From Betaproteobacteria bacterium (GTDB lineage Bacteria > Pseudomonadota > Gammaproteobacteria > Burkholderiales > JACQAP01): a stretch of DNA of 34,612 bases. The notes beneath the pieces are model-generated. The model did not search any database and was not told where the DNA came from. It worked only from the letters and a program-made list of their open reading frames with translations. Below, piece by piece: positions 454 through 23,436 of the stretch; position 1 is the first letter of the stretch, and each line of letters begins with the position of its first letter. The translations under genes and the position numbers were made by a program. Location: positions 1-34,612 of the forward strand of contig JANXVW010000036.1 in assembly GCA_025351455.1 (NCBI GenBank), given 5' to 3'.

Positions 454-1827
454 ATGCCGCATGCACTGCTAGTTGATGATGACGTCGATACCCTGGAAAG
501 CTTGCAGGAACTGGTCGCGCGCGAGGGGTTTACGGTGGCGACCGCGCCAAGCCTGAAGGCGGCCCGCGAAAACATGGCGTTGCAACGGCCCGACGTGGTG
601 CTGCTGGACCTGATGTTGCCCGACGGCGACGGCATGGACCTGTTTCAGGACGTCGAATCGCGCGCGACCACCGAGGTGGTCATGATTACGGGCCACGCCA
701 GCATCGAGACGTCCATCGAGGCCCTGCGCCTGGGCGCTGCCGACTACCTGATCAAGCCGGTCAACATCAAACAACTCAAGGCGATTTTGTCGCGTGTGGC
801 ACGTCCCACCGATCTGAAGAAGGAAATCAGCGCGCTACGCGGCGAGTTGCGCAGCCTCGGGCACTTTGGCCGCCTGCTCGGTTCTTCCGCGGTGATGCAG
901 GGCGTATACGACCAGATCCAGAGGGTGGCCCCCACGGTTGCCACGGTCCTCATCACGGGTGAAAGCGGCACGGGCAAGGAACTGGTGGCGCAGACGCTGC
1001 ATGACCTGAGCCGACGTCGCAAGAACCCCTTCATTCCGGTGAACTGCGGTGCAATTTCGCCGCAGCTCATCGAAAGCGAAGTCTTCGGCCACGAGAAGGG
1101 CAGCTTTACCGGCGCGATACGCGAGCATAAGGGCTACTTCGAGCGCGCCAACGGCGGCACCCTGTTCCTGGACGAAGTCACCGAAATGCCGGTCGAGTTG
1201 CAGGTCAAGCTGCTGCGCGTGCTCGAGGAAGGGACCTTTATGCGCATCGGTTCCGACCGTGAAATCGAAGTCGACGTGCGCATCATCGCCGCCACCAACC
1301 GCGTGCCGGAGGAGGCGGTGGCCGAAGGCAAGTTGCGCGAGGACCTGTTGTACCGCCTCCAGGTTTTCCCGCTGCACCTGCCGCCGCTGCGCGAGCGCGA
1401 CGCGGATGTGAAACTCATTGCGGAGGAATTCCTCAAGGACCTCAACCAGAAAGAGGGGACCGCAAAGGCGTTCGCGGCGGATGCCCACGCCCTGCTCGCG
1501 GACTGGCGCTGGCCGGGCAACGTGCGGGAATTGCGCAATGTCGTGCAACGCGCCTACATCATGGCCGACGATTCGATCAATGCCGGTTGCCTGCCGCTGG
1601 AAACCGGAAAAACCCGCCAGGCCGCCAGCAATGGGCCTTTCCTGCAGATACGCGTCGGCAGCACGGTCGCGGAGGTCGAGCGCATCCTGACGCTGGCCAC
1701 GTTGCAGCAATGCGGTGGCGTCAAGGAAAAAGCCGCGCAGACACTCGGTGTCAGCCTCAAGACCTTGTACAACCGCCTGCGTGAATATGATTCCCGTACG
1801 GACGCGCTTCCCACCGATCCGGGTTAG
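454..1827 (+). CDS. Sigma-54-dependent response regulator, NtrC family
   Basis: This is a cytoplasmic enhancer-binding protein of 457 residues that should activate RNA polymerase carrying sigma-54 after phosphorylation. The receiver domain (about 1-115) has the acidic pocket D8-D10, the phospho-acceptor D52 in VLLDLMLP and a conserved Lys near 102. The AAA+ domain has Walker A GESGTGKE (169-176), the sigma-54 contact loop as GSFTGA (216-221, where GAFTGA is usual) and Walker [10 protein letters not shown] Fis-type helix-turn-helix lies at about 423-442. The ATG at 454 is chosen because the receiver fold begins there; an in-frame TTG at 400 would add 18 residues of no evident value. No cognate kinase is adjacent. 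It is a candidate activator of the three sigma-54 promoters downstream; that link is inference. Confidence 0.95.
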
Positions 1828-2187
1828 GAATCTGGCCGCCGGGCAAAAAGATCAAAATTCCTTGCGTGTGGTGAGGCCTGCCGGACTGCGCGCCAAGCTA
1901 TCGTTCCCGGATGCCGCAGGCTTCCGGATGAAGGGAGCAGGCGAAAGCGCCGGCAACCGGAACCTGGTCCTGTTCAAAGCCTGTCCCGCGTAACAAGTCC
2001 GATGTAGCGGGCGCCAGGCGCCGCGGCCATGCGCTGTTCGGCGCCTTTGTCCCTGGACGGAACTGTGTTGCGATAGTGCCGTCGAAAGAACAGGTATGCC
2101 GAGATGCCATACCCCGCATGGAAGACCAGCGGCTTCCAGTCGTTTGTGACTGGCCGTTAGCACAATCTCGCTTTGCGAAAAAAGCCG
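1828..2187. other. Intergenic region between regulator and glucan synthase
   Basis: About 350 bases separate the regulator stop from the glucan synthase start. I see no gene, tRNA or clear intrinsic terminator. No -24/-12 element with the right spacing was found, so whether the synthase has its own promoter here cannot be decided from inspection. Confidence 0.4.
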
Positions 2188-12226: not shown

Positions 12227-12280
12227 ATTTTTTAACGGCCCTGTTTGAGAATTTTCTTTTCGTGCTGTTCTTTTCATGCA

Positions 12281-12325
12281 ACCCATCCCCACCCCTGACC
12301 CTCCCCTTGAAAGGGAGGGAGGTTC
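12281..12325 (-). repeat. REP-like intergenic repeat, copy 2 (inverted)
   Basis: This is an inverted, diverged copy of the element at 12181, reading ACCCATCCCCACCCCTGACC on the plus strand followed by a palindromic CTCCCCTTGAAAGGGAG. Together with copies 1 and 3 it can form long hairpins in the transcript. Confidence 0.8.
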
Positions 12326-12392
12326 ATCTGCTTTATCTTGGTTGCCTCTCGGGCAATCCGATCTACGACAACCTTCAGCGACTGGCGCCCGT

Positions 12393-12438
12393 GACCCTCC
12401 TTCCCCTTCAAGGGGAAGGTCGGGATGGGGATGGGTCG
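12393..12438 (+). repeat. REP-like intergenic repeat, copy 3
   Basis: This copy matches copy 1 at 45 of 46 bases and has the same orientation. The three copies fill most of the space between the lipoprotein gene and the promoter of the CsbD unit. Confidence 0.85.
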
Positions 12439-12517
12439 CATGTTCATGGCAGTACCGAGCCTTCACGATCAGGGCCGGTTTCCTGCCGCACCAATCCTGA
12501 AAATTTTTCCGGTCGGC

Positions 12518-12532
12518 CGGTATTTATTACCG
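12518..12532. promoter_or_regulatory. Putative enhancer (UAS) palindrome, CsbD unit
   Basis: The sequence CGGTATTTATTACCG matches the site at 20251-20265 in 12 of 15 positions. It is centred about 62 bases upstream of the -24 element at 12587. A degenerate second half-match, GTAAACCTTAACCG, lies at 12547-12560. Assignment as an activator site rests on similarity to the other two promoters and on position. Confidence 0.5.
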
Positions 12533-12585
12533 TCGTGTCGTGGAAAGTAAACCTTAACCGGATGAATTGCCGACTTAAATGTTAT

Positions 12586-12601
12586 TGGCACGGCGGTTGC
12601 G
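12586..12601 (+). promoter_or_regulatory. Sigma-54 (-24/-12) promoter, CsbD unit
   Basis: TTGGCACGGCGGTTGC is a near-perfect match to the sigma-54 consensus TGGCACG-N4-TTGC. GG is at 12587-12588 and GC at 12599-12600, with exactly 10 nt between them. Transcription should start near 12612, about 78 bases before the CsbD start codon. Confidence 0.8.
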
Positions 12602-12689
12602 ACAGCAACCCTTGCGATAGCCGCTTTCAGCCGCGCATATCGACTGCAAGCGGATGCGTCTTTCAGCCAACGGGAAAAAAGGAGCAGCA

Positions 12690-12887
12690 ATGAACTGGGA
12701 TCGTATCGAAGGGAACTGGAAACAATTTTCGGGCAAGGCCAAGGAGCAATGGGGCAAATTGACCGACGATGAACTCGACAAGGTCGCCGGCCGACGCGAA
12801 CAACTCGCCGGCAAGATCCAGGAATCCTATGGCATCAGCCGCGATGAAGCAGAGCGCCAGGTGAAGGATTGGGAATCGCGGTTCTGA
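12690..12887 (+). CDS. CsbD family stress protein
   Basis: The 65-residue hydrophilic protein opens with MNWDRIEGNWKQFSGKAKEQ and continues with WGKLTDDEL, the hallmark of the CsbD family of small stress-induced proteins whose molecular role is not settled. The ATG at 12690 follows a good ribosome site, AAGGAG, 6 bases upstream. It is the first gene behind the sigma-54 promoter at 12586 and is followed after 85 bases by a small exported protein, with a terminator beyond. The full family length is present and nothing is missing. Confidence 0.93.
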   Translation: MNWDRIEGNWKQFSGKAKEQWGKLTDDELDKVAGRREQLAGKIQESYGISRDEAERQVKDWESRF

Positions 12888-12972
12888 GCGGCGCGTTTCA
12901 AGCGCAATCCTGCAATTGCCGCGACTGACACAAAAATTTCAATAATTGTCTTAACAGGACTAGGAGAAGACC

Positions 12973-13419
12973 ATGCACACACACGACGACTTCCTGCAAC
13001 CCTCCACCGGCGCCATCTGGCGCGACCGCCTTCTGACCGCGGGTGCTGCAATCGTCATTGGCATGACGTTGAGTGCTACCGCGCCGGCGGACGAAACGTC
13101 GAGCGAGAACAAGCGTGCCGCCGATCTGAAATACGATCAGACCGTGCGCCAGGCCAAGGCCGACTACAAGGCGGCCCGCGCGAAATGCAACAGCCTCGGC
13201 GGCAACGACAAGGATGTCTGCGTGAAGGAAGCCAAGGCTGCCGAATCGACCTCGATATCGGACGCGAAGGCCGCAAAGAAGAACGCCGGCACCAATGCCG
13301 AGGCGCACGCCGACGCGCGTCATGCCGAATTCAAGGTCGCCAAGGAAAGGTGCGAATCGATGAGCGGCAACGCCAAGGACATCTGCGTGAAGGAGGCCGA
13401 GGCCAGGTATCGCCAGTAA
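12973..13419 (+). CDS. Small exported protein with duplicated Cys-GNxKDxCVKEA motif
   Basis: The protein has 148 residues. It starts at an ATG behind AGGAG. An N-terminal hydrophobic stretch (LLTAGAAIVIGMTLSATAPA) looks like a signal peptide, so a periplasmic location is likely. The mature part is rich in Ala, Lys and Glu, probably helical, and contains two copies of a Cys-bearing unit: CNSLGGNDKDVCVKEAKA and CESMSGNAKDICVKEAEA. Each has two cysteines eleven residues apart, which could pair as disulfides. I do not recognise a named family. The gene probably shares the CsbD transcript and ends before the terminator at 13535. Confidence 0.85.
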   Translation: MHTHDDFLQPSTGAIWRDRLLTAGAAIVIGMTLSATAPADETSSENKRAADLKYDQTVRQAKADYKAARAKCNSLGGNDKDVCVKEAKAAESTSISDAKAAKKNAGTNAEAHADARHAEFKVAKERCESMSGNAKDICVKEAEARYRQ

Positions 13420-13534
13420 CGCTTAAAGGGAAACCGTAGCGGACACCTCTGCGCGAGGTGACGCTCTCCGGTACCCGTCATTGCAATCCGGGCCGACCGC
13501 TAACCGGCTCGTGACAGTACGCCTAACCACCGCC

Positions 13535-13568
13535 AGCCCCCGGTCCGCAAGGACTTGGGGCTTTTTTT
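13535..13568 (+). terminator. Strong intrinsic terminator
   Basis: AGCCCC-CGGTCC pairs with GGACTT-GGGGCT around a GCAA tetraloop, followed by seven T residues. It lies 115 bases after the stop of the exported Cys-motif gene. The 3' region before it also contains a smaller hairpin, CACCTC-TGCGC-GAGGTG. Confidence 0.88.
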
Positions 13569-13591
13569 GTCTACCGAGACTACCAGGGACC

Positions 13592-13624
13592 TTCACCGCA
13601 AAGACGCAAAGTAACGCAAAGGAA
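13592..13624 (+). repeat. CACCGCAAAG-type repeat, left copy
   Basis: The sequence TTCACCGCAAAGACGCAAAG continues with TAACGCAAAGG. An inverted partner lies at 13753-13784, so the transcript could form a large stem with a loop of about 130 bases. The same paired arrangement recurs at 29636 and 29761. Confidence 0.8.
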
Positions 13625-13752
13625 GGAATGGCCACGCGGGCTCGAGAGGAAGAACCGCTCGCCAAATCACGGTCGATTACAGGTGGCGATCATCGTTGTC
13701 ACCGTTACGGAACGGCGAGTACCCTGGAAGGCTATTGTTCCGCTTGCGCACT

Positions 13753-13784
13753 TCTTTGCGTTCCTTTGCGTCTTTGCGGTGAGA
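13753..13784 (-). repeat. CACCGCAAAG-type repeat, right inverted copy
   Basis: On the plus strand this reads CTTTGCGTTCCTTTGCGTC followed by TTTGCGGTGAGA, the reverse complement of the element at 13592. It ends 19 bases before the stop codon of the minus-strand kinase and could serve as a transcription end for either direction. Confidence 0.8.
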
Positions 13785-13802
13785 AGAATTGGCCCGACGG
13801 GA

Positions 13803-16800
13803 TTACTTGGGTTCGCGGGCGCGAAGGATCGCGCTGTAGAGTTCTTCAAGGTTGACGGGCTTGGCGACGAATTCCTGGTAGCCGGCGGCCATGGCGGCCT
13901 TGTAGTCCTGGTCGCGTGCGTAGCCGGTGAGCGCGACGGCGGGGGTGTTGCCGCCGCTCGCCGCGTTGAGCGCGCGCACCTTGCGCACGAGTTCGTAGCC
14001 GTCTTCTTCCGGCAACCCGATGTCGGAAACGAGAACGTCCGGACGCAGGGACTGCAGCTTTTCCAGGGCTTCCGGCGCGGAGGCTGCGGAGGTGACTTCC
14101 GCGCCGGCACGCTGCAGGGCCTCCTGCAGCATCTCGCGCGTGTTCGGATCGTCGTCGACAGACAGGATGCGTAAACCCGTCAGCCCGGGCTTGGGCTTCG
14201 TGCGCGGCGCGACGCCAGCGTCCGGTGCGCGCGGTGCGACCGTCGCCGGTTGCGCCGGGCCGGCTTCGTGCAGGGAGCGGATGGGGAGTACGACCGCAAA
14301 GCGCGCTCCGCGGCCCTCGCCCTCGCTCTGTGCCATGACGGTGCCGCCGTGCAGTTCGGTGAGATGGCGCACGATCGCCAGGCCCAACCCCAGCCCGCCA
14401 TGCCGGCGTTTTATGCTGGCGTCCGCCTGGCGGAAGCGGTCGAAAACGTAAGGCAGGAATTCGGCGCTGATTCCCTCGCCATCGTCGGCTACGCTGACTT
14501 CGACCTGCGCGTCTTTGCGCGACAGGCCGAGCGTGATGCGGCCGCCGGGACGGGTGAATTTCACCGCATTCGACAGCAGGTTCCAGACGATCTGTTGCAG
14601 CCGGGCGGGATCGCCGGATAGCGTGCCGACATCCGGATCGATGCGACGTTCGAGCGTGATGCCGCGTGCCACGATTGCCGGGCGCAGCGATTCGACGATG
14701 GAATCGATGAGCGAAATCAGGTCGACCGGCTGGATATCGAGCCGCAGGCGGCCCGAGCCGATGTCGGCAACGTTCAGCAGGGCATTGATGAGTTTGGCCT
14801 GCGCGTTGGCGCTTGCGTCGATCTGCGCGAGCGCCCGCCGTACCGTCGCGCGATCGGCTTCCCCTTCCTGCAGGGTCTGGGTCCAGCCAAGAATTGCATT
14901 CAGGGGTGTGCGCAGTTCGTGCGACAAGGTTGCCAGGAAATCGTCCTTGGCGCGGTTGGCCGCCTCCGCCTGCGTGCGCAATGCATGTTCGCGCTGCAAC
15001 AGATCGACGCGCTCCTGTTCGGTCTGTTTGCGCTCGTCGATATCGACCAGCACCACCAGCCACTTTTCCTTGCGGCCGCCGGCATCGTGTACCGGCACGC
15101 CGCGCGCCAGGTGCCAGCGATACTGGCCGTCGGAGGCGCGGCGCATGCGCAATTCCGATTCATAGGCCGCGTCCGAGGCGCGCGCCTGCCTCCAGGTTTC
15201 TATCGCTTTCTCGCGTTCGTCGGGATGGATCTGGTTCATCCATTCGCCGTGCACGCTCTGCTCCAAGGTGAGGCCGCTGTATTCGACCCAGTACTGGTTG
15301 ATGAACTCCGGGCTGCCGTTGCGGCCGACGATCCATACCCCCTGGGGAGAAATCTCCACTAGCGAACGGTAGCGTTCCTCACTGTCGCGCAACCCATCTT
15401 CGGCGCGCTTGCGGGCGGTGATGTTCCTGACGTTGCACTGCATGACCCGCCTGCTGCCCGACATGTAAGCATTACAGGTGAATTCGACGTCCTGGGGTTG
15501 CCCGGAAGGCGTGACCATGGTCAGGTGATCGTAGCGGTGGTAGTTTTTCTTCCGCAGTTCGGCGAAGGCCGCGCGGCCGCGCGCCTCATCGTGGAACAGC
15601 CCCATGTCCCACAGGGACGTGGCGAGCAGCTGCTCGCGCGTCTGGCCCAGCAGTTCGACCATGTACGGATTGACGTCGGTAATGCGTCCCGTATCGGCAT
15701 CGAACAGGAACACGCCGTCCGGCGAGGCCTCGAACAACCTGCGATAGCGCACCTCCGATGCATTCAGCGCCGCGCCGGCGCGCCGCTGCACGAGGTTGAT
15801 TCCGGCCAGCAGGAAGCTGAGCAGAATCCCGCTCAGGGCGACGTTTGGCGCAATGCTGCGCTCCGATGCCTGTTCGAATTCCGGACGCGTGGTGAACGCC
15901 ATGCCCCACGAGCGCCCGGGAAGGTCCACCACCGCCGTAGTCGAAAAGCGCGGCTTGTAGCCCGCGACCCAGTTCGGCCGCATCAGGTCGGAGCGGTACA
16001 TCAGCGAATTGGTCGAAGTTTGCGTGCCGTCGTAAACCTGCAGGTCGACTTCGCGGCCCGCGTCGCCGGAATGCACGGCCGAAAACATTTCGTCGGTCTG
16101 CACCGAGGCGTGGATGAAGCCGCGCAACGCTGCGCGACGCGCCGCTTCCGTAGCCGGCACGCTCCGGCCGCTGTACACCGGCACGAAAACATGGAAGCCG
16201 GCGCGCTTCTTCGCCCAGAATTCCCGGATCACGGTCAGCTTGCCTGAGATCGCCGGCCTGCCGCTGTCGCGTGCGCGTTCCATCGCGGCCCGGCTTTTTG
16301 GATCGGTGAACATGTCGTTGCCCGTGGCAACCTGGCTGCGCCACTCCTGCGGTTCGAGATAGACGAAGCGCAGCCGTCCGTTCGCGCCGTTGTTGAGAAC
16401 AATGCGCGGGATGTTGCCGGCGGATCGCGGGCTCTGCGCAAATTGGCCCGGAGCGCCCTCGCGGCGCATCCAGCCGACGCCCAGTATGCCGGCATACCGG
16501 ATTTCCGAGGATTGCAAGGGGGCGGCGCGCGAGCCGGAGTGCTGCTTTTTCAGGTTGAGGCGGCCCGCGAAAGCGCGAAACTGCGCCAAGCTCGGTTCGC
16601 GGTCGCCGGCGAACAGGGTCGCGCCATCGCGCAGTAAAACCAGGTAGGCATCCATCTGGTCTTTCGTCCCGCGCTGGGTGCTGGCGGCATATTTTTCGAA
16701 CCTTACCGCGTCTTCCGCATCCGCCATGCGCAACAACTGCCAGACAACCGCGCCTGTGGCGGCCAGCGTAATCACCAGGACCAGAAAAGGCCCCCACAGA

Positions 16801-16823
16801 TATTGTCTGGAATCCGGTTTCAT
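13803..16823 (-). CDS. Hybrid histidine kinase, CHASE-PAS-PAS-HisKA-HATPase-REC
   Basis: This 1,006-residue membrane sensor kinase has a first membrane segment at about 8-28. A periplasmic CHASE-type region (about 60-310) contains GVGWMRREG. A second membrane segment lies near 328-346, and two PAS domains begin near 359 and 483. HisKA has LSHELRTPLN with the phospho-acceptor H635. HATPase_c has NLLSNAVKF, DDGEGIS and GLGLGLAIV. A C-terminal receiver carries phospho-acceptor D934 (VSDIGLP) and a conserved ALTGYA/KP pair. All catalytic motifs look intact. I chose the ATG at 16823 because the first membrane segment follows it directly; an upstream in-frame start would add about 35 residues. Ligand and output partner are unknown. 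It lies between two putative sigma-54 units, making it a candidate input to them. Confidence 0.94.
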   Translation of the reverse strand: MKPDSRQYLWGPFLVLVITLAATGAVVWQLLRMADAEDAVRFEKYAASTQRGTKDQMDAYLVLLRDGATLFAGDREPSLAQFRAFAGRLNLKKQHSGSRAAPLQSSEIRYAGILGVGWMRREGAPGQFAQSPRSAGNIPRIVLNNGANGRLRFVYLEPQEWRSQVATGNDMFTDPKSRAAMERARDSGRPAISGKLTVIREFWAKKRAGFHVFVPVYSGRSVPATEAARRAALRGFIHASVQTDEMFSAVHSGDAGREVDLQVYDGTQTSTNSLMYRSDLMRPNWVAGYKPRFSTTAVVDLPGRSWGMAFTTRPEFEQASERSIAPNVALSGILLSFLLAGINLVQRRAGAALNASEVRYRRLFEASPDGVFLFDADTGRITDVNPYMVELLGQTREQLLATSLWDMGLFHDEARGRAAFAELRKKNYHRYDHLTMVTPSGQPQDVEFTCNAYMSGSRRVMQCNVRNITARKRAEDGLRDSEERYRSLVEISPQGVWIVGRNGSPEFINQYWVEYSGLTLEQSVHGEWMNQIHPDEREKAIETWRQARASDAAYESELRMRRASDGQYRWHLARGVPVHDAGGRKEKWLVVLVDIDERKQTEQERVDLLQREHALRTQAEAANRAKDDFLATLSHELRTPLNAILGWTQTLQEGEADRATVRRALAQIDASANAQAKLINALLNVADIGSGRLRLDIQPVDLISLIDSIVESLRPAIVARGITLERRIDPDVGTLSGDPARLQQIVWNLLSNAVKFTRPGGRITLGLSRKDAQVEVSVADDGEGISAEFLPYVFDRFRQADASIKRRHGGLGLGLAIVRHLTELHGGTVMAQSEGEGRGARFAVVLPIRSLHEAGPAQPATVAPRAPDAGVAPRTKPKPGLTGLRILSVDDDPNTREMLQEALQRAGAEVTSAASAPEALEKLQSLRPDVLVSDIGLPEEDGYELVRKVRALNAASGGNTPAVALTGYARDQDYKAAMAAGYQEFVAKPVNLEELYSAILRAREPK
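15464..15476. promoter_or_regulatory. UAS-like palindrome inside kinase gene
   Basis: TGTAAGCATTACA contains the exact 11-mer GTAAGCATTAC that is also the core of the palindrome at 20251-20265. It lies within the coding sequence (Asn-Ala-Tyr), so it may be chance. Confidence 0.25.
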
Positions 16824-16982
16824 CGGATGTCGAAAAAAAGTAAATGCCGAATAAATACGCAGACGACACTGTTCCACACACCGAGTGAATAGACTGCGTG
16901 TCCGCCAATTAGTGCGCGCGACGCGCATCGGCAGTGCTATCTCCGGCGCTTTCCCCCTTACCTCGGGCTACGCGATTCGATC

Positions 16983-16997
16983 AGGTAACCCTTACAA
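16983..16997. promoter_or_regulatory. Putative UAS palindrome 1, DUF3309 unit
   Basis: AGGTAACCCTTACAA is a near-palindrome related to CGGTAAGCATTACCG. It is centred at 16990, 22 bp from the next copy, which is two helical turns, so a cooperative regulator could bind both on one face. Confidence 0.5.
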
Positions 16998-17004
16998 GGC
17001 GCCG

Positions 17005-17019
17005 TTGTAAGCCTTACCG
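17005..17019. promoter_or_regulatory. Putative UAS palindrome 2, DUF3309 unit
   Basis: TTGTAAGCCTTACCG differs from the site at 20251 at only a few positions. Both are followed by the same GCG. It is centred about 82 bases upstream of the -24 element at 17094, a normal distance for a sigma-54 enhancer. Confidence 0.55.
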
Positions 17020-17092
17020 CGACGCGCCTGATCGCGGGCGGGTTTGCGCCGTAGAACGCTGAATCGTCACCAGAATTATTTCTCTGGTGCAA

Positions 17093-17108
17093 TGGCATGG
17101 AAGCTGCT
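17093..17108 (+). promoter_or_regulatory. Sigma-54 (-24/-12) promoter, DUF3309 unit
   Basis: TGGCATGGAAGCTGCT has GG at 17094-17095 and GC at 17106-17107 with exactly 10 nt between. The surrounding block (GCAATGGCATGGA, then TGCTGAATAG) is nearly identical to that at 20379-20402 before the DUF1328 gene, which argues for shared function. Confidence 0.7.
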
Positions 17109-17194
17109 GAATAGCCTGAGGGTGGGCGGGAGAAGCATTTGACCTCGCGTTGAATCCTCCCCTTGCTGCAGCGGTCAAGGAAAAGGTCCGGTTC

Positions 17195-17275
17195 ATGACA
17201 CGAATGATGCTGATGTGGATGTTCGGTGTTCCGTTGACCGTGATGCTGTTGTTCATGGTTTTCGGAATCCTGTGA
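17195..17275 (+). CDS. Predicted 26-residue membrane peptide
   Basis: The open frame MTRMMLMWMFGVPLTVMLLF ends six residues later and forms a single hydrophobic segment after one Arg. It is the first frame behind the sigma-54 promoter at 17093 and lies 56 bases before the DUF3309 gene. The ribosome site (AAGG, about 8 bases upstream) is modest. I do not recognise a family. Its position and membrane character make it plausible, but a frame this short could be chance. Confidence 0.4.
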   Translation: MTRMMLMWMFGVPLTVMLLFMVFGIL

Positions 17276-17331
17276 AAGATGCGGATTGAATCCCTGCGAC
17301 GCCGCTTGTCGCCTGGGCCGAGGAGAGAGAA

Positions 17332-17490
17332 ATGACAATGGGAACATTGCTGTTGATCGTCGTGGTCCTGCTGCTGATCGGCGCCGTGCCGAGTTGGCCC
17401 TACAGTAAAAGCTGGGGATACGGGCCCAGCGGCGTGCTCGGCGTCGTCGTCCTCGTAGTCGTCCTGCTGGTGGTCATGGGGCGAATCTGA
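17332..17490 (+). CDS. DUF3309 family small membrane protein
   Basis: This 52-residue protein has the layout of DUF3309: MTMGTLLLIVVVLLLIGAVP forms a first membrane helix, SWPYSKSWGYGPSG is the conserved Trp/Tyr/Gly loop, and a second helix of mostly Val and Leu ends at MGRI. The ATG at 17332 follows a GAGGAGAGAG ribosome site. The function of the family is unknown; it is common in proteobacteria, often near other stress proteins. The stop codon lies inside the first unit of a 17-bp tandem repeat. Confidence 0.9.
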   Translation: MTMGTLLLIVVVLLLIGAVPSWPYSKSWGYGPSGVLGVVVLVVVLLVVMGRI

Positions 17491-17531
17491 CCACGGCGCG
17501 TATCTGACCACGGCGCGAATCTGACCGTGGC
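17481..17531 (+). repeat. Three tandem copies of a 17-bp unit
   Basis: The unit GCGAATCTGACCACGGC occurs three times in a row with period 17 (17481, 17498, 17515). Copy 2 has one change (GCGTAT) and copy 3 has two near its end. Copy 1 supplies the last codons and stop of the DUF3309 gene. The rest fills part of the gap before the BON gene. Confidence 0.85.
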
Positions 17532-17583
17532 ATCCGGATATGAAGAGTTTTCTAACCGATGTTTAGTCGAACCGGAGATTTTC

Positions 17584-17898
17584 ATGGAATCAGTCAATCG
17601 TGTTTTCCAGATTCTGTTTTCCGCCGTCCTGTTGTCCATCGCGCTGGGCTGCGCGGGCACCACGCACAAGGAAAGCACCGGCGAGTATGTCGACGATTCC
17701 TGGATCACTTCCAAGGTCAAGGCTGCCTTCGTCAATGACAAGACCCTCAGCGCGTCCGAAATAAACGTCAAGACCTTCAAGGGTACCGTGCAGTTGAGCG
17801 GTTTCGTCAAGGACCCCGGCGACGTCAGCCATGCCGCGCACGTGGCCCGCGACATCAAGGGTGTGACGTCGGTCAGGAACGATCTGCAGGTGAAGTAA
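17584..17898 (+). CDS. BON-domain lipoprotein, OsmY-like
   Basis: The 104-residue protein starts at an ATG 7-8 bases after GGAG. Its N-terminal hydrophobic segment ends in SIALGC, consistent with a lipobox, so it is probably anchored to a membrane facing the periplasm. Residues about 38-104 form one BON domain, with DDSWITSKVKAAF at the start, the central VKTFKGTVQLSGFV and the closing VTSVRNDLQV. BON proteins such as OsmY bind membranes and are induced by osmotic stress. Here the gene sits third in the putative DUF3309 operon. Confidence 0.9.
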   Translation: MESVNRVFQILFSAVLLSIALGCAGTTHKESTGEYVDDSWITSKVKAAFVNDKTLSASEINVKTFKGTVQLSGFVKDPGDVSHAAHVARDIKGVTSVRNDLQVK

Positions 17899-17975
17899 CA
17901 GCTGCACATCGTTCTTGCCGTAAACCGGGATGCTCGCACCGCGATCGTCCCGGATCGACAGGGAAAGGGGCTATT

Positions 17976-18365
17976 GTGAATACCGGCGTGATCACCAGAA
18001 TCATGTTGTCGTCCTTGTTCTACACGACCTTGTTGGGGACGACGATCGTCATGCCGCTCATCCTGGCTACGAGCGGCGATGCCGCAATGGCAGTCGGGGC
18101 GGGCAATGCGAATGCGGATGCGAGCTTCCAGGCAAAAACCAATGCCCGGGCCACGGACGATTCCCAGGTATGGGAACGTTCCGCGCCGGCTCGCGCAATG
18201 CAAGAGGAACCGCTGGATATAGGCACCATGGTGGAAATGCACCGCGCTTTGCGTTTTCCGCAGATGGACATTCCGCGTGCCGGGCAGGCAATGACCGACA
18301 AATGCGGTCCGGATGCCGCGATGGTCCGGCCGGGCAAGGCGCGCGCGAAAGCGATCAGGACGTAA
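17976..18365 (+). CDS. Hypothetical exported protein
   Basis: The 129-residue open frame begins with GTG behind AAAGGGG; an ATG at 18003 is an alternative. The N-terminal third is hydrophobic (IMLSSLFYTTLLGTTIVMP), consistent with a signal peptide or anchor. The rest is polar, with a single Cys and several Met residues and no recognised domain. It lies between the BON and glycine-zipper genes with gaps of 77 and 72 bases, so it is probably a member of the same operon. Function is unknown. Confidence 0.6.
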   Translation: MNTGVITRIMLSSLFYTTLLGTTIVMPLILATSGDAAMAVGAGNANADASFQAKTNARATDDSQVWERSAPARAMQEEPLDIGTMVEMHRALRFPQMDIPRAGQAMTDKCGPDAAMVRPGKARAKAIRT

Positions 18366-18437
18366 TCGCCCCGCGGGTGCGGGCGAGGCAACACAGGGGC
18401 AACGCTCGACCGCACCCGTTCAAACATGGAGAAAAAC

Positions 18438-19097
18438 ATGACGACCATCATTGCCGGGATGTTCGATACGGTGCATAAGGCTGAAGATGCCATGGGCAAG
18501 TTGATCGGCGGGCCATTCGGCGCAAAGGATGTCTACACATTCGCCAATAATCCACCGGGACAGCACGATGCTTTCCCGATCGGGGGGGACGAAAACGAAG
18601 ACCCGGGCTCGAAGCACGCCGATGGCGATGCAGGCAAGGGCGCCGCAGTCGGACTGGGCACGGGCGCGGCGATAGGCGCGATCGTCGGCGGTCCACCGGG
18701 CGCGGCGGTCGGCGCCGGGATCGGCGCTTACCTGGGCTCCCTGGCTGGCGCGCTGCATGGCATGGAGGGTCGCGGAACGGAAGAAGACCCCGTGCGCCGG
18801 CCCGCAGGAATTGTCGTTGCAGTCAGGATAGAAAGCGGCAAGGCGGAGCAATTCGCGATTTCGACCCTGCAGACCTATGGCGCCATCCATGTGGAAAAGG
18901 CCGAAGGCCAATGGAATGACGGCAAATGGATCGATTTCGATCCCGTATCCGCGCCGGTCATTCTGCGCGGCAGTTCTGAGCCGGCGCTCCCAGGCGGGTC
19001 CCGCGATGATCTGGAATCTCTGTCACCGCAACGACGCAAAGGCGGCGAAGGAAATCCCCTCCGCCCGGCTTCCTCCACTGAGCGCAGACGGAGCTGA
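18438..19097 (+). CDS. Glycine-zipper stress protein with repeat-derived tail
   Basis: The 219-residue protein starts at an ATG 5-6 bases after GGAG; an ATG 12 bases earlier is an alternative. The N-terminus (MTTIIAGMFDTVHKAEDAMG) resembles general-stress proteins with a short alpha/beta domain. A Gly/Ala-rich segment (about 75-110, GTGAAIGAIVGGPPGAAVGA) is a glycine zipper likely to insert in or span a membrane. A second alpha/beta part follows, with VVAVRIESGKAEQFAISTLQ. The last 25 or so residues are read from a CACCGCAAAG-type repeat and look low-complexity, suggesting the repeat inserted near the original stop and extended the frame. Confidence 0.8.
   Translation: MTTIIAGMFDTVHKAEDAMGKLIGGPFGAKDVYTFANNPPGQHDAFPIGGDENEDPGSKHADGDAGKGAAVGLGTGAAIGAIVGGPPGAAVGAGIGAYLGSLAGALHGMEGRGTEEDPVRRPAGIVVAVRIESGKAEQFAISTLQTYGAIHVEKAEGQWNDGKWIDFDPVSAPVILRGSSEPALPGGSRDDLESLSPQRRKGGEGNPLRPASSTERRRS
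19023..19051 (+). repeat. CACCGCAAAG-type repeat within a gene
   Basis: TCACCGCAACGACGCAAAGG is followed by CGGCGAAGG, a diverged copy of the elements at 13592 and 29636. It falls within the 3' end of the glycine-zipper gene and encodes part of its tail. No inverted partner is obvious nearby. Confidence 0.65.
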
Positions 19098-19166
19098 AAC
19101 TCAGGCGCGAGCCGTGTCTGCGCATTTCCTTTCCCCTGTCCACCGGAAAGCGGACGATCAGAAACC

Positions 19167-20222
19167 ATGCGCACAGGTAAGGTCGCGGATCATCGCCGAG
19201 GCTTGTTCCTTGCCCTTGAGTCGTTTGCGGGCACGGCGGCGCTACTGCTGGACAAGAACGCAAACCTGGAACACGGCAACCGCCAGATCTGCGACTTGCT
19301 GGAATGCGCCGACGACGGCGAATTGGAAGCGAAATGGAGGGTGATCGCGCCGTTGTTCGGGTTGCTGACGCAAACGCCATTTTCCGGGAAACCGCGGCTG
19401 TGCAATGCCGAGATTCCCCTGTCCGCCGGAACGTGTCCAATGAGCCTGGAGCTGCACGCCCTCGATGAATCGGTGGGGCACGGCTATTTCGCCCTCCTCA
19501 GGGATCGCGGCGTCCTCAATCACGTCGAGCGCGAGTTGCTCCAGGCGAGCGAGCGCCGCGGCTGGGGCCATCAGTGCGTAACGCTGATGCACGATCTCAA
19601 GGGCATCCTGAACTCGATGCAGATCTCGCTCGAGCTGATTGCGAATGCCGATGAGGAAGCGGCGGATGTATCGCCGGCAGAAGCGCGCAAGCGCAGACGC
19701 ATTGCCACAGTCAAAGAAGACCTCGGACGCATGAATCTGGCGTTGCGCGCGCTGCCGGGGGTGGACGGGGGCGCGGAACCGCCCGTTACCGAATTCGAAA
19801 CGAGCGATGTGATCCGGGAAAATCTGGCCATCCTGCGCGAGCTTGTACGGCGGAACAGCATCGAACTCAAGCTGGAATTGCCGGAGGCGCCTTTGCCCGC
19901 CCGCGGGCGGCGGCCATGGCTGAAGCAGGCGTTGTTCAATATCACCTTGCATCGCATTAACGCCATGCGCGCGGGCGGCCGGCTTGTGGTCGAAGCGGCC
20001 ATGACGGAGCAAGGCGCGGTCGTGAGACTGCGCAACGACGTGCCGGATATGCGCGACGGCATGGTCGACGCAGGCCATCGCCTGTTGTGTTCGGGCCGCA
20101 GCAACGGCGGCACGACGGATCTCCAGGTCGCCCGCGCGATATTCGAATCCCAGGGCGGTGCAATGGACGTGGAAAGCGGCGGCATGGACAGCACCGTGTT
20201 CGTCCTGCGCATGCCGCGCTAG
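19167..20222 (+). CDS. Degenerate histidine kinase-like protein with PAS-like domain
   Basis: This soluble 351-residue protein has a PAS-like N-terminus (about 20-125, AALLLDKNANLEHGNRQICD). A dimerisation/phospho-acceptor-type helix with LMHDLKGILNSMQ (H142) follows, then a region shaped like an HATPase domain. The nucleotide-binding motifs are eroded. In the N-box, FNITLHRINAM (257-267) has His262 where the Mg-binding Asn is expected. The G1 box reads NDVPDMRDG instead of DxGxGI, and the G2 box reads GGTTDLQ instead of GxGLGL. It probably cannot bind ATP in the usual way and may act as a regulatory pseudokinase. It is the last gene of the putative DUF3309 operon, immediately followed by a stem-loop and then the next UAS. 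Confidence 0.75.
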   Translation: MRTGKVADHRRGLFLALESFAGTAALLLDKNANLEHGNRQICDLLECADDGELEAKWRVIAPLFGLLTQTPFSGKPRLCNAEIPLSAGTCPMSLELHALDESVGHGYFALLRDRGVLNHVERELLQASERRGWGHQCVTLMHDLKGILNSMQISLELIANADEEAADVSPAEARKRRRIATVKEDLGRMNLALRALPGVDGGAEPPVTEFETSDVIRENLAILRELVRRNSIELKLELPEAPLPARGRRPWLKQALFNITLHRINAMRAGGRLVVEAAMTEQGAVVRLRNDVPDMRDGMVDAGHRLLCSGRSNGGTTDLQVARAIFESQGGAMDVESGGMDSTVFVLRMPR

Positions 20223-20247
20223 CCCCTCTCCCCTTGCGGGAGAGGGG
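20223..20247 (+). terminator. GC-rich stem-loop after kinase-like gene
   Basis: CCCCTCTCCC pairs perfectly with GGGAGAGGGG over 10 bp with a 5-nt loop (CTTGC), starting one base after the stop codon. No T-run follows, so it may be a transcript-stabilising hairpin or REP-type element rather than a classical terminator. Confidence 0.5.
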
Positions 20248-20250
20248 CGT

Positions 20251-20265
20251 CGGTAAGCATTACCG
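20251..20265. promoter_or_regulatory. Putative UAS palindrome, DUF1328 unit
   Basis: CGGTAAGCATTACCG is a palindrome with 6-bp arms around GCA. It is the best-formed of the related sites in the window and is centred about 125 bases upstream of the -24 element at 20383. Confidence 0.6.
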
Positions 20266-20381
20266 CGCCTTTGCAATTCCTTCATCCCCCTCGCTGCCCG
20301 CTTGCGCTGCGCGCTTTCTTCGTCGTAGCGAAATGCCTTGTGAAAGAGCGGGTTGAATCTGGCGTCACGCCGCCGCTGCAA

Positions 20382-20397
20382 TGGCATGGACGTTGCT
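20382..20397 (+). promoter_or_regulatory. Sigma-54 (-24/-12) promoter, DUF1328 unit
   Basis: TGGCATGGACGTTGCT matches TGGCAYG-N4-TTGCT, with GG at 20383-20384 and GC at 20395-20396 exactly 10 nt apart. Transcription should start near 20408, about 50 bases before the DUF1328 start codon. Confidence 0.75.
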
Positions 20398-20459
20398 GAA
20401 TAGCGATCAGGAGGTTCTGCCGACGGCATGAACACCAACCAGGCGCGAAGGAGGCCACC

Positions 20460-20621
20460 ATGCTTCAAGCTGCTGCAGTATTTTTCATCATCGCCATCAT
20501 CGCCGCGGTATTCGGCTTCGGCGGCATTGCCGCGGGGGCTACGGAGATCGCCAAGATCCTGTTTTTCATTTTTCTCATCGTGTTCATCGTCAGCCTGGTC
20601 ATGGGCCTGATGAGACGTTGA
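20460..20621 (+). CDS. DUF1328 family small membrane protein (YtjA-like)
   Basis: The 53-residue protein has two hydrophobic helices, [20 protein letters not shown] and a second one ending [10 protein letters not shown], joined by the family signature [18 protein letters not shown]. Full family length is present. The ATG at 20460 follows AAGGAGG by 5-6 bases. Members are small inner-membrane proteins of unknown function, often induced by stress. It is the first gene behind the sigma-54 promoter at 20382 and heads a tight run of four or five genes. Confidence 0.94.
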
Positions 20622-20667
20622 GGCGCAGCAACGTGCAGTTCAATCAATCAGACATCCAGGAGGCGAT

Positions 20668-21009
20668 ATGAACGTGGAGAACAGTGCTGCCAGGCACATC
20701 AACGCAACGAGCGGACGGAAGGACAAGTTGGTGGACGATATAAAATCGGTCGTGACAGACGCGGAAGAAATGCTCAGGAAAGCCAGGACATCGAGTGCCG
20801 AAGGCTATTCCGCGATTCGCGCGGAACTCGAAGACCGCCTCGCGAGTTCCATCGCGCGCCTGCAGGAAGTCCAGGCGCAGATGAAGTCGCGGGCGCGCCA
20901 GGCTGCCAGGGTCACGGACGACTACGTGCACGACAATCCGTGGAAGTCGATGAGCTATGTCGCCATCGCGGGTCTGGTCGTGGGACTGCTCCTCACTCGC
21001 CGCCGTTGA
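20668..21009 (+). CDS. DUF883 family protein (ElaB/YqjD-like)
   Basis: The 113-residue protein begins behind AGGAGG. A long amphipathic helix (about 18-85) is followed by DDYVHDNPWKSMSYVAIAGL, the family's C-terminal single membrane helix, and an RRR end. Known members (ElaB, YqjD) are tail-anchored inner-membrane proteins, some binding ribosomes in stationary phase. It lies 46 bases after the DUF1328 gene and 49 before the oxidoreductase, so co-transcription is likely. Confidence 0.92.
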   Translation: MNVENSAARHINATSGRKDKLVDDIKSVVTDAEEMLRKARTSSAEGYSAIRAELEDRLASSIARLQEVQAQMKSRARQAARVTDDYVHDNPWKSMSYVAIAGLVVGLLLTRRR

Positions 21010-21058
21010 CCGAAGGCGAACGCGGCGCAACCGGCGTTCATCCGACTCCGGTCCGGAC

Positions 21059-22456
21059 ATGCTAATTCGCCATGAGAACTACGATGCGGTAGTGATCGGG
21101 TCGGGCCAGGCCGGGGAACCGCTTGCCATCGAATTTGCGCGCGCCGGGCTGCATACGGCGCTGCTAGAAGGTTGCGGATTCGGCGACGACTGCGTCGATA
21201 CCGGTTGCGCGCCTTCGAAAAGCCTGATCGCGAGCGCGAATGTCGCGCACCTGGCGCGCAATGCCCAGGCGTTCGGCGTGCAGACCGGCAGCGTCGCAGT
21301 CGATTTCGGCAAAGTGCAGATGCGCAAGCAGGCGCTGGTGGAGGGATTGCGCAGCGAGTCCCAGCGGGCGTTGCGGGCCGCGCCGGACCTCACCGTATTG
21401 AAGGGTGAAACGCGCTTCGAAAATGCCGGATCGCTGCTCGTGCGCGAACCCGACGGCTCAATGCGCGGACTGCATGCACCGAGGATTTTCATCAACACTG
21501 GCGCCCGGCCGACCCTGCCGGACCTGCCGGGCCTCGCCCACGTGCCGCACCTGACTTCCAGCAGCGCAATGGAACTCGACGAATTGCCCGACCACTTGCT
21601 GGTACTGGGCGGCAGCTACCTCGGCGTCGAACTCGGCCAGATGTTCCGCCGCTTTGGTTCGGGTGTTTCCGTCATCGAAAGGCAGAGCCAGTTGCTCGCG
21701 CGCGAAGACCGCGATGTCGCCGCGACCATGGCTGAAATCCTGCGCGAGGACGGCGTCGAGGTTTTCCTGGAAACCGAGGCCGTTGGGGTCGCCACCGCTC
21801 CCACGGGCGCAATCAGGCTGACGGTACGGACTCCCTCGGGCGAGCATGTCCTGGCCGGATCGCACCTGCTGGTGGTGGCGGGACGCGAGCCTAACACCGG
21901 CGGCCTCGACCTTGCTGCCGCCGGCATTGACGTGGACGCCCGCGGGTACATAAAGGTCAATGAACGGCTGGAGACGAGCGCCCCGGGCGTGTATGCGCTG
22001 GGCGGCGTCAATGGCGGACCGGCGTTCACCCATGTCGCCTACGACGATATGCGCATCCTCCGTGCCGATGTGCTGGACAACGCGAATACGAACAACATGG
22101 GCCGAATGTGCCCTTACACCGCATTTACCGATCCGCAACTGGGCCGCATCGGCCTGACGGAAACCGAGGCGCGCGAACAGGGCAGGGCGGTCAGGGTAGC
22201 CAAGCCGCCGACGCACAGAGTTGCGCGCGTTGCAGAACAGGCCGGGCCACGCGGGCTGATGAAAGTGGTCATCGATTGCGCAACCGACCGGATCGTCGGC
22301 GCGGCGGTCATCGGGGCCGATAGCGGGGAAATCATGGCCATGCTGCAGACCGCGATGATGGCGGACCTGACCTACACGGCCTTGTGCGAGGGGATGTTCG
22401 CGCATCCGGCACTGGCCGGATCGCGGACCAGCTTGTGCGCGGTACTCGACGGCTGA
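21059..22456 (+). CDS. FAD-dependent pyridine nucleotide-disulfide oxidoreductase, MerA-like
   Basis: The 465-residue flavoprotein belongs to the class I disulfide reductase family (dihydrolipoamide, glutathione and mercuric reductases). It has an FAD-binding GSGQAG (14-19), the redox pair CVDTGC (C45, C50) followed by APSK, a second Rossmann motif LGGSYLGVELGQ, and a dimerisation domain with YTAFTDPQLGRIGLTETEA. The C-terminus has AHPALAG (H449). The Glu expected five residues after the active-site His is Gly454, so catalysis may be altered. The mercury-binding extra domain and C-terminal Cys pair of true MerA are absent. The ATG at 21059 is chosen from the fold boundary; the ribosome site is weak. 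Substrate is unknown. Confidence 0.88.
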   Translation: MLIRHENYDAVVIGSGQAGEPLAIEFARAGLHTALLEGCGFGDDCVDTGCAPSKSLIASANVAHLARNAQAFGVQTGSVAVDFGKVQMRKQALVEGLRSESQRALRAAPDLTVLKGETRFENAGSLLVREPDGSMRGLHAPRIFINTGARPTLPDLPGLAHVPHLTSSSAMELDELPDHLLVLGGSYLGVELGQMFRRFGSGVSVIERQSQLLAREDRDVAATMAEILREDGVEVFLETEAVGVATAPTGAIRLTVRTPSGEHVLAGSHLLVVAGREPNTGGLDLAAAGIDVDARGYIKVNERLETSAPGVYALGGVNGGPAFTHVAYDDMRILRADVLDNANTNNMGRMCPYTAFTDPQLGRIGLTETEAREQGRAVRVAKPPTHRVARVAEQAGPRGLMKVVIDCATDRIVGAAVIGADSGEIMAMLQTAMMADLTYTALCEGMFAHPALAGSRTSLCAVLDG

Positions 22457-22486
22457 TGGCAGAAACTTTAACAAAGGAGAACGGCA

Positions 22487-23035
22487 ATGGACAGACAGCA
22501 ACCCTTCGTATCCGACGTCAAGGCGCTGCGCGAACGTGCGCGGCGGCACATCGAGCAAGGCGCCATCACCGAGGGCTACCGGGCCGATCGCGAAACCGTG
22601 ATCAAGATCTGCAATGAGGCTCTGGCCACTGAAATCGTTTGCGTGCTGCGCTACAAGCGCCACCACTTCGTGGCGGAGGGCATCAATGCCGACAGCGTCG
22701 CGGCGGAATTCGCGGAACACGCGGCCGAGGAGCAGGCCCACGCCGACAGCATCGCCCAGCGCATTATCCAGCTCGGTGGCAAGCCGAATTTTTCACCTGA
22801 AGGACTGAGCAGCCGCAGCCACTCCGAATATGTCGAAGGCGACACGCTGCTCGAGATGATCAAGGAAGACCTGATTGCCGAACGCATCGCCATCGACAGT
22901 TACAAGGAGATCATCGACTACCTGGGAGACAAGGATCCGACCACACGCCGCATGTTCGAGCAGATCCTCGCGGTCGAGGAAGAGCACGCGGACGACCTGG
23001 TTTCCCTGCTGGGCGGCGTGCCCAAAAACGCATGA
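22487..23035 (+). CDS. Ferritin-like (bacterioferritin-type) di-iron protein
   Basis: The 182-residue, mostly helical protein follows AAAGGAG. It shows a full ferritin-type iron centre: E49 (TEIVCVLRYKRHHF), E82 with H85 (EEQAH), E132 (AERIAIDSYKEII) and E164 with H167 (EEEHADDL). The length fits the bacterioferritin/DNA-binding ferritin superfamily. It may store or oxidise iron and so limit oxidative damage; an adjacent flavoprotein reductase could supply electrons, but that is inference. The gap to the oxidoreductase is 30 bases. Confidence 0.9.
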   Translation: MDRQQPFVSDVKALRERARRHIEQGAITEGYRADRETVIKICNEALATEIVCVLRYKRHHFVAEGINADSVAAEFAEHAAEEQAHADSIAQRIIQLGGKPNFSPEGLSSRSHSEYVEGDTLLEMIKEDLIAERIAIDSYKEIIDYLGDKDPTTRRMFEQILAVEEEHADDLVSLLGGVPKNA

Positions 23036-23070
23036 AGCGGCCGATCGATTTGGCGACGGGGGAGGCCGCC

Positions 23071-23196
23071 ATGCACAGGAGCCTTTTGGTCGGCCTTGGC
23101 ATCCTGGCGGCGGCAATAATGAACTTCTCGTTTCGCCGGTCAAGGCGACAATCGAAGGCAAGCGGCGTTGCGCAGGTGCCGCGGGGTTTTCGCTGA
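23071..23196 (+). CDS. Predicted 41-residue membrane protein
   Basis: The frame MHRSLLVGLGILAAAIMNFS continues with FRRSRRQSKASG and ends just before the tRNA. It has one hydrophobic helix followed by a basic tail and a strong GGGGGAGG ribosome site 5-6 bases upstream. An in-frame ATG at 23032, overlapping the ferritin stop as ATGA, would give 54 residues. It is probably the last gene of the DUF1328 operon. No family is recognised. Confidence 0.45.
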   Translation: MHRSLLVGLGILAAAIMNFSFRRSRRQSKASGVAQVPRGFR

Positions 23197-23272
23197 TGGC
23201 GCCCCGAACACGAATCGAACGTGCGACCTACCCCTTAGGAGGGGGTTGCTCTATCCACTGAGCTACCGGGGC
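23197..23272 (-). tRNA. tRNA-Arg (anticodon CCT)
   Basis: Read on the minus strand, 76 bases fold into a full cloverleaf: acceptor GCCCCGG/TCGGGGC, D-arm GCTC-AGTGGATA-GAGC, anticodon arm ACCCC-CTCCTAA-GGGGT (anticodon CCT), a 5-base variable loop, T-arm GCACG-TTCGATT-CGTGT, discriminator G and an encoded CCA. It decodes AGG. Its 3' end abuts the stop codon of the small ORF on the other strand. No integrase or partial tRNA copy is present, so it is not evidently used as an integration site here. Confidence 0.96.
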
Positions 23273-23281
23273 GACGCGCGG

Positions 23282-23310
23282 ATTCTAACCGAAATCCCGC
23301 GGTTTCCCAT
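23282..23310 (-). promoter_or_regulatory. Possible promoter of tRNA-Arg
   Basis: On the minus strand a TAGAAT hexamer (23282-23287) lies 9 bases before the tRNA 5' end. A poor -35 candidate, ATGGGA (23305-23310), stands 17 bases upstream of it. The -10 is convincing; the -35 is not. Confidence 0.35.
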
Positions 23311-23436
23311 CGTCCGGGCAGGGCGCAGATGCAGTCGGGTCGGTAATGTAGCCACATGGAGACGTCTTGTGCATCCGGGTAAAGAGATGATGAACTTGCA
23401 GCAACCAGAATTCCTCCAGGCGCCGTCAATTCCCCC

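Follow-up and report, generated by a model that had tools for sequence, protein, structure and literature searches.

The stretch of DNA analysed here (the window: 34,612 nucleotides, contig JANXVW010000036.1 of the betaproteobacterial assembly GCA_025351455.1) contains three operons encoding small proteins of the CsbD, DUF3309, DUF1328 and related families, which appear to be transcribed by sigma-54 RNA polymerase under the control of a single NtrC-type activator acting at helically phased palindromes with the core GTAA-N3-TTAC. The activator is predicted to belong to a group whose helix-turn-helix (HTH) domain ends in KTLYNRL. Based on the sequence comparisons described below we regard this reading as probable (approximately 0.8).

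Sigma-54 sites (GG-N10-GC within TGGCAYR-N4-YTGCW) were given a simple score with a maximum of 8, a good site reaching at least 7. Exactly three such sites were detected in the whole window, with scores of 7, 8 and 8, and by their sequence the three promoters look like the sigma-54 type. A palindrome was considered coupled if no more than one of its eight core letters deviated and it was located not more than 160 nt upstream of a sigma-54 site, the gap being counted from the end of the palindrome to the TGG of the -24 element; all three sites are preceded by a coupled palindrome. The original prediction had placed three -24/-12 sites and four upstream palindromes in this region, and the positions of all of them were verified. 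Each site shows GG-N10-GC, and the palindromes share the core GTAA-N3-TTAC, with a mismatch in one of the four:

12519..12531, no strand assigned: palindrome GGTATTTATTACC, one core mismatch, 55 nt to the -24 element
12586..12601, plus strand: -24/-12 site TGGCACGGCGGTTGCG, upstream of the CsbD gene
16984..16996, no strand assigned: palindrome GGTAACCCTTACA, 97 nt to the -24 element
17006..17018, no strand assigned: palindrome TGTAAGCCTTACC, 75 nt to the -24 element
17093..17108, plus strand: -24/-12 site TGGCATGGAAGCTGCT, upstream of a 26-residue open reading frame (ORF) and the DUF3309 gene
20252..20264, no strand assigned: palindrome GGTAAGCATTACC, 118 nt to the -24 element
20382..20397, plus strand: -24/-12 site TGGCATGGACGTTGCT, upstream of the DUF1328 gene

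The gaps of 55, of 75 and 97, and of 118 nt differ in steps of 20-22 nt, which corresponds to approximately two helical turns, and these four gaps alone yield R 0.97 at 10.5 bp (P 0.014). When the window was simulated 150 times with a first-order Markov model, the joint arrangement of promoters and palindromes appeared once in a single simulation and was absent in the other 149. The weakest palindrome is the one at 12519, in which GTAT replaces GTAA, yet CGGTA-N5-TACCG forms a perfect dyad. A second weak palindrome with one mismatch, 28 nt from the 12586 promoter, was disregarded.

Two further elements were noticed in this part of the window. A fifth exact palindrome (GTAAGCATTAC, 15465-15475) lies within a hybrid sensor-kinase ORF (13803-16928, minus strand) and has no coupled sigma-54 site, and the repeat-like GGTCGGGATGGGGATGGGT (12410-12440) is located 5' of the CsbD unit and recurs 5' of a sigma-54-like site on contig C274 (L007, approximately 1290-1320).

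Only one sigma-54 activator was recognised in the window:

457..1827, plus strand: NtrC-type sigma-54 activator, candidate regulator (Pfam Response_reg, Sigma54_activat, HTH_8)

Its product combines the features of an NtrC-type enhancer-binding protein, i.e. a receiver, an AAA+ domain with Walker A (GESGTGKE) and a GAFTGA-like loop (GSFTGA), and a Fis-type HTH domain, and it is most likely the activator acting on the four palindromes. Relatives (E<=1e-105) were found in 44 of 399 genomes of the order, the window genome counted, and a deltaproteobacterial metagenome-assembled genome (MAG) encodes a relative with 60% identity over residues 1-447.

In the neighbourhoods of these relatives the palindrome is strongly enriched. 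From 52 activator matches 40 regions holding 43 of them were fetched, and two plasmid regions were added, resulting in 42 neighbourhoods (798 kb, 92 sigma-54-like sites) selected by the activator protein and not by the motif; outside this set stand the window's own region, G248 and G021, which were read separately, and G119:C55, G295:C1, G265:C11, G026, G207 and G176. Of 3,328 gapped 4-mer palindromes tried on the set, 764 had eight or more sites, and among these GTAA-N3-TTAC ranked first. It was detected upstream of sigma-54 sites 17 times, at 14 promoters, compared with 1.27 sites expected (P 5e-14). Exact sites numbered 4 as against 0.13 expected, and a ranking on exact sites only placed the same palindrome first again (P 2e-5, uncorrected for multiple testing). 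Phasing was determined on a wider set of 21 promoters in activator regions, some of them with weaker -24/-12 letters, and yielded a period of 10.7 bp (R 0.68, P 9e-6), a result obtained in none of 20,000 uniform simulations. The palindrome is hence recurrent upstream of -24/-12 elements and helically phased with them, as a sigma-54 enhancer should be. At six loci (L030, L033, L128, L177, L204, L230) it lies between divergent sigma-54-like sites, and in G251 this spot is located approximately 400 nt beyond the end of a KTLYNRL activator gene. The HTH domain ends in KTLYNRL or in a variant of one or two letters in all 32 of the 42 regions that have a recognised Walker A word.

The operon extents in the window were inferred from gene order and strand. 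The first unit comprises the CsbD gene and perhaps the gene of a small Cys-repeat protein, the second extends from the 26-residue ORF via DUF3309, the BON protein, a hypothetical ORF and a glycine-zipper protein to an NtrB-like kinase, and the third encodes DUF1328, DUF883, a FAD oxidoreductase and a ferritin-like protein:

12690..12887, plus strand: CsbD-family gene (Pfam CsbD 2.9e-22)
12973..13419, plus strand: small secreted-looking Cys-repeat protein, perhaps in the CsbD unit (no match in Pfam or NCBIfam)
17195..17275, plus strand: 26-residue ORF MTRMMLMWMFGVPLTVMLLFMVFGIL, with a 25-residue counterpart in G218 (no match in Pfam or NCBIfam)
17332..17490, plus strand: DUF3309 gene (Pfam 2.4e-21)
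17581..17898, plus strand: BON-domain lipoprotein-like gene (Pfam BON 5e-19)
17976..18365, plus strand: small hypothetical ORF with GTG start
18426..19097, plus strand: glycine-zipper protein (Pfam Gly-zipper_YMGG 9.4e-8)
19167..20222, plus strand: NtrB-like kinase, candidate partner of the activator (partial matches to the ZraS, PrsK and AtoS models)
20460..20621, plus strand: DUF1328 gene (Pfam 1.1e-14)
20668..21009, plus strand: DUF883 (ElaB/YqjD-like) gene (Pfam DUF883_C 9.2e-13)
20957..22456, plus strand: pyridine-nucleotide-disulphide (FAD) oxidoreductase ORF, possible operon member (Pfam Pyr_redox_2 from residue 42), the true start probably being located further in
22487..23035, plus strand: ferritin-like (Dps/bacterioferritin-like) gene, possible operon member (Pfam Ferritin 1.2e-28)

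According to Pfam the same families are encoded downstream of coupled motifs near related activators, namely CsbD at locus L201 (genome G030), DUF3309 at L172 (G097), DUF1328 at L190 (G178), DUF883 at L165 (G119) and L201, and BON at L128. Likewise by Pfam, short-chain dehydrogenases follow the motif at L177 and L204 and an activator gene at L171 (G126), where the -24/-12 letters are weaker, and rpoN paralogues follow a palindrome and a sigma-54-like site at L172 (G097), L194 (G206) and L196 (G335). The small membrane protein of L129 and the Cys-repeat proteins of L129 and L202 have no Pfam match, and some first genes fall outside the stress theme, such as a glycosyltransferase-like gene at L193.

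The composite pattern, in which palindrome and promoter are combined, was detected in two of 250 genomes of the order, i.e. in the window's own genome (G000, 3.94 Mb) and in G218, which belongs to another family and also encodes a KTLYNRL activator. In G218 a palindrome pair and TGGCACGCAAGCTGC are located 5' of a 25-residue ORF (MKMFILWLLGVPLSLLIVLKLFGVL) closely resembling the 26-residue ORF of the window. Furthermore, a palindrome and TGGCACAGCGCTTGC are located 5' of a CsbD-DUF1328-DUF883-like-ferritin cluster, which lies downstream of a PLD gene as in the window and whose DUF883-like protein scores 21.2 bits, below the cut-off of 27. At a third site of G218 the palindrome lies between divergent sigma-54-like sites (score 6/8), one of them preceding a BON protein. 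A looser composite searched in 12 genomes was found at four places (G000, two in G218, G256), all four preceding small stress, membrane or lipoprotein genes, and its reversed pattern at none. The strict pattern occurs in one of seven genomes of the G218 genus.

Two candidates were discarded. A 24-residue look-alike of the tiny ORF in G237 showed no clear motif in the preceding 420 nt, and the DUF3309 gene of G114, from the same genus as the window genome, has a CsbD fragment upstream and neither the motif nor a sigma-54 site, and no activator match (E<=1e-105) was found in that genome.

Several results weigh against the proposed regulon. The palindrome is not enriched in G000 as a whole, where its reversed-pattern control was commoner (15 and 17 strand hits compared with 3 and 4), and GTAANNNTTACCG was no commoner than its reversed pattern in 13 genomes. 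The coupled motif, if strictly scored, is present in only 11 of the 42 activator neighbourhoods. In 20 neighbourhoods of other activators none of 19 sigma-54 sites had the motif, compared with 14 of 92; this control is underpowered (Fisher P 0.06) and the contrast only suggestive. Among six additional plasmid regions that encode orthologues, a coupled palindrome was found only in that of Cupriavidus EM10 and in none of the other five. Three genomes of the window's genus offer no comparison at the genus level, having neither an activator match at E<=1e-105 nor a composite match. The kinase, for which only partial NCBIfam matches (best 4.2e-8) and no Pfam match at 0.01 were obtained, has no match at E<=1e-15 in the 249 other genomes of the order, and the activator gene is located 11 kb away from the first operon.

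The kinase was rejected as a marker of the system, being present in one of 250 genomes of the order, the window's own. Likewise, the idea of a large regulon spanning one genome was abandoned, since in G000 and in 12 other genomes the motif was counted no more often than the reversed pattern. Due to the lack of a genome-wide motif enrichment the regulon in G000 is taken to be local. GTAAGNNTTAC occurs at six places in G000, four of them in the window contig including the one within the kinase gene, while the remaining two are located within an HD-GYP-like ORF and at the end of a gene. Two of the ten occurrences of TGGCAYGNNNNTTGC are in the window contig; among the eight others only C10:9740 is preceded by a palindrome that deviates at one of the eight core letters (GCAATCGTTAC, 93 nt upstream and out of phase). 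It is followed by a small secreted Cys-repeat-like protein and may be regarded as a weak candidate for a further regulon member. The third-best match of G000 to the window promoter letters, TGGCATGGTAAATGCTGA (G000:C204:3532; L013, approximately 1501), is located 5' of an ORF for a porin-like outer-membrane protein and has no palindrome.

The original prediction had proposed one enhancer-binding protein for all three promoters. This reading of one activator is supported because the palindrome is enriched and phased in other genomes, precedes the same gene families there and is accompanied by a candidate activator in the window; the enrichment upstream of -24/-12 sites that holds for those genomes does not extend to G000, and the assignment of the binding activator is a prediction from sequence.

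In the proposed mechanism sigma-54 RNA polymerase would transcribe the three operons from 12586, 17093 and 20382, and an activator of the KTLYNRL group, most likely the 457-1827 product, would switch on all three. The activator may be phosphorylated by a kinase such as the one encoded at 19167-20222, and its dimers are predicted to bind the GTAA-N3-TTAC palindromes that precede the -24 element by 55, 75, 97 and 118 nt. The spacing in whole turns would bring the bound activator and the polymerase to the same face of the helix, and the activator oligomer would then remodel the sigma-54 closed complexes. Oligomer formation and closed-complex remodelling are established for NtrC-type activators. 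Since the kinase gene is part of the second unit, a feedback loop seems conceivable. The products, small membrane, periplasmic and stress proteins, may form a local envelope and general-stress module.

The palindromes may be real enhancers and yet be bound by another activator of the same HTH group, e.g. a receiver-less paralogue, instead of the 457-1827 product. We consider this unlikely, though it is the alternative that survives best. The KTLYNRL end is common to activators with and without a receiver, which are often encoded as divergent pairs, and the coupled-motif loci L201 and L202 were entered via receiver-less relatives. The distance of 11 kb and the five palindrome-free plasmid islands also point in this direction. 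The orthologues of these islands are 54-57% identical and four of the five islands carry BON, DUF1328 or rpoN genes; either their sites have diverged or their activators read another word. However, coupled motifs were also found where only a receiver-bearing activator is in view (L172, L177, L190, L193, L196), and no sigma-54 activator other than the 457-1827 product was recognised in the window, which argues for that product as the activator of the three operons.

Some plasmid islands showed further features. In L225, L228 and L229 (approximately 16600-19400) two neighbouring sigma-54 activator genes on opposite strands are located in stress or glycosyltransferase islands of Burkholderia megaplasmids, and in L228 an rpoN, a DUF3008 and a DUF1328 gene follow one another. 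A Paraburkholderia sabiae plasmid carries a BREX phage-defence cluster (L203, 16375-25329) within a few kb of an activator orthologue, and on a Comamonadaceae plasmid (L227, 13095-16431) rpoN is located near an activator orthologue on the opposite strand, the palindrome being absent. The rpoN genes of Comamonas and Xanthomonas plasmids were set aside as ordinary lptB-rpoN copies without the palindrome.

It is very improbable that the -24/-12 sites are minor or silent look-alikes, that sigma-70 or a general-stress sigma factor drives the operons and that an ordinary dimeric regulator binds the palindromes. The CsbD and DUF families are usually placed under general-stress sigma factors, and none of seven plasmid-borne CsbD genes from other bacteria (7 of 280 matching records) had the motif together with a sigma-54 site, so that sigma-54 control seems not to be general for the CsbD family. 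An unrelated regulator would, however, leave unexplained the co-occurrence of palindrome and -24/-12 element, helically phased over many genomes. That the three control regions resemble each other through a recent duplication of a promoter segment or by chance, and have no function, can practically be dismissed despite the CAATGGCATGGANGNTGCTGAATAG common to the second and third promoters and the missing enrichment over the whole genome, since the spacing varies by whole turns, the flanking sequences are not alike, and the layout recurs in unrelated genomes ahead of the same families.

A scan of 84,980 species genomes returned 13 stretches, compared with approximately seven expected by chance as estimated from uniform base frequencies, and in eight of the 13 the match length was 100-103 (1.7 expected); several of them look real. 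Four stretches come from two Archangium genomes, two from Bryobacterales precede a universal-stress protein (Pfam Usp in one of the two), one from a planctomycete lies between two sigma-54 sites, and one from a gammaproteobacterial MAG lies between two sigma-54 sites adjoining an activator with the end LGISVKTLYNRLKSY. L034, L037, L038 and L040 (4/13) were not counted as convincing. We tentatively suggest, as a possibility falling somewhat short of an even chance, that KTLYNRL activators, often a divergent pair with and without a receiver, read GTAA-N3-TTAC at helically phased positions as part of an undescribed, widely distributed sigma-54 envelope and general-stress response. In the order of the window this response would control CsbD, DUF1328, DUF3309, DUF883, BON and very small membrane proteins, Acidobacteria, Myxobacteria and Planctomycetes would have related circuits, and in some lineages the response would command a sigma-54 paralogue of its own.

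The flanks of the stress operons encode a GH94/glucoamylase-type ORF of 2832 residues (cyclic-glucan-synthase-like, 2173-10671) on one side, and MdoG (23437-24981) and an MdoH-like glycosyltransferase-2 ORF (24570-27506) on the other, which suggests an osmotic/envelope island. A tRNA gene (23200-23272, minus strand) between the ferritin-like gene and mdoG was the only Rfam match over 12280-23500.

The proposed control would link these small stress proteins to a DNA code, to a family of regulators and to a sigma factor; no description of their control in these bacteria was found. The palindrome with a phased -24/-12 site may also serve as an annotation rule that flags ORFs of 25-26 codons which annotation would miss. 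No description of the motif or the regulon was found in the open-access literature, the D. vulgaris motif logos of PMC4641369 lying outside this search.

Among known systems NtrC, AtoC, ZraR and PrsR (the latter of PEP-CTERM systems) resemble the window activator in having a receiver, an AAA+ and a Fis-type HTH domain. NtrC/AtoC-type systems likewise have an enhancer upstream of -24/-12, and the window kinase fragment resembles ZraS, PrsK and AtoS. However, in the NCBIfam comparison of the window proteins, taking the best 25 of 111 families, the activator stayed below the curated equivalog cut-offs of AtoC (403.6, cut-off 714), NtrC (383, 558.6), PrsR (370.7, 502.6), ZraR (334, 760) and PspF (285.3, 443.55). 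To our knowledge, the palindrome and the target set match no NtrC/AtoC-type system.

CsbD, DUF1328 and BON genes are usually placed under general-stress sigma factors (SigB, RpoS, EcfG). The window encodes the same small protein families as these systems, whereas its promoters look like the sigma-54 type, which suggests a stress module run by sigma-54 rather than by a general-stress sigma factor. The phage-shock regulon (PMC3162934) likewise places membrane-stress genes under sigma-54 via PspF. The window activator differs from PspF in having a receiver and in its score below the PspF cut-off, and no psp genes were recognised among the first genes near related activators; membership in the phage-shock regulon is thus not indicated.

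PMC4371752 describes a second rpoN gene of Ralstonia solanacearum (rpoN2), which has its own sigma-54 promoter, requires rpoN1 for expression and plays a role its authors call enigmatic. The comparison with rpoN2 is with the published description only; the rpoN paralogues in three other genomes of the order, preceded by both the palindrome and a sigma-54-like site, offer a testable role for second rpoN genes, and a self-commanded sigma-54 paralogue would, if true, give these enigmatic genes a role. Two sigma-54 variants in some Burkholderiales are also mentioned in PMC3162934, which argues that sigma-54 controls mainly the bacterial exterior. The putative regulon of the window fits this view.

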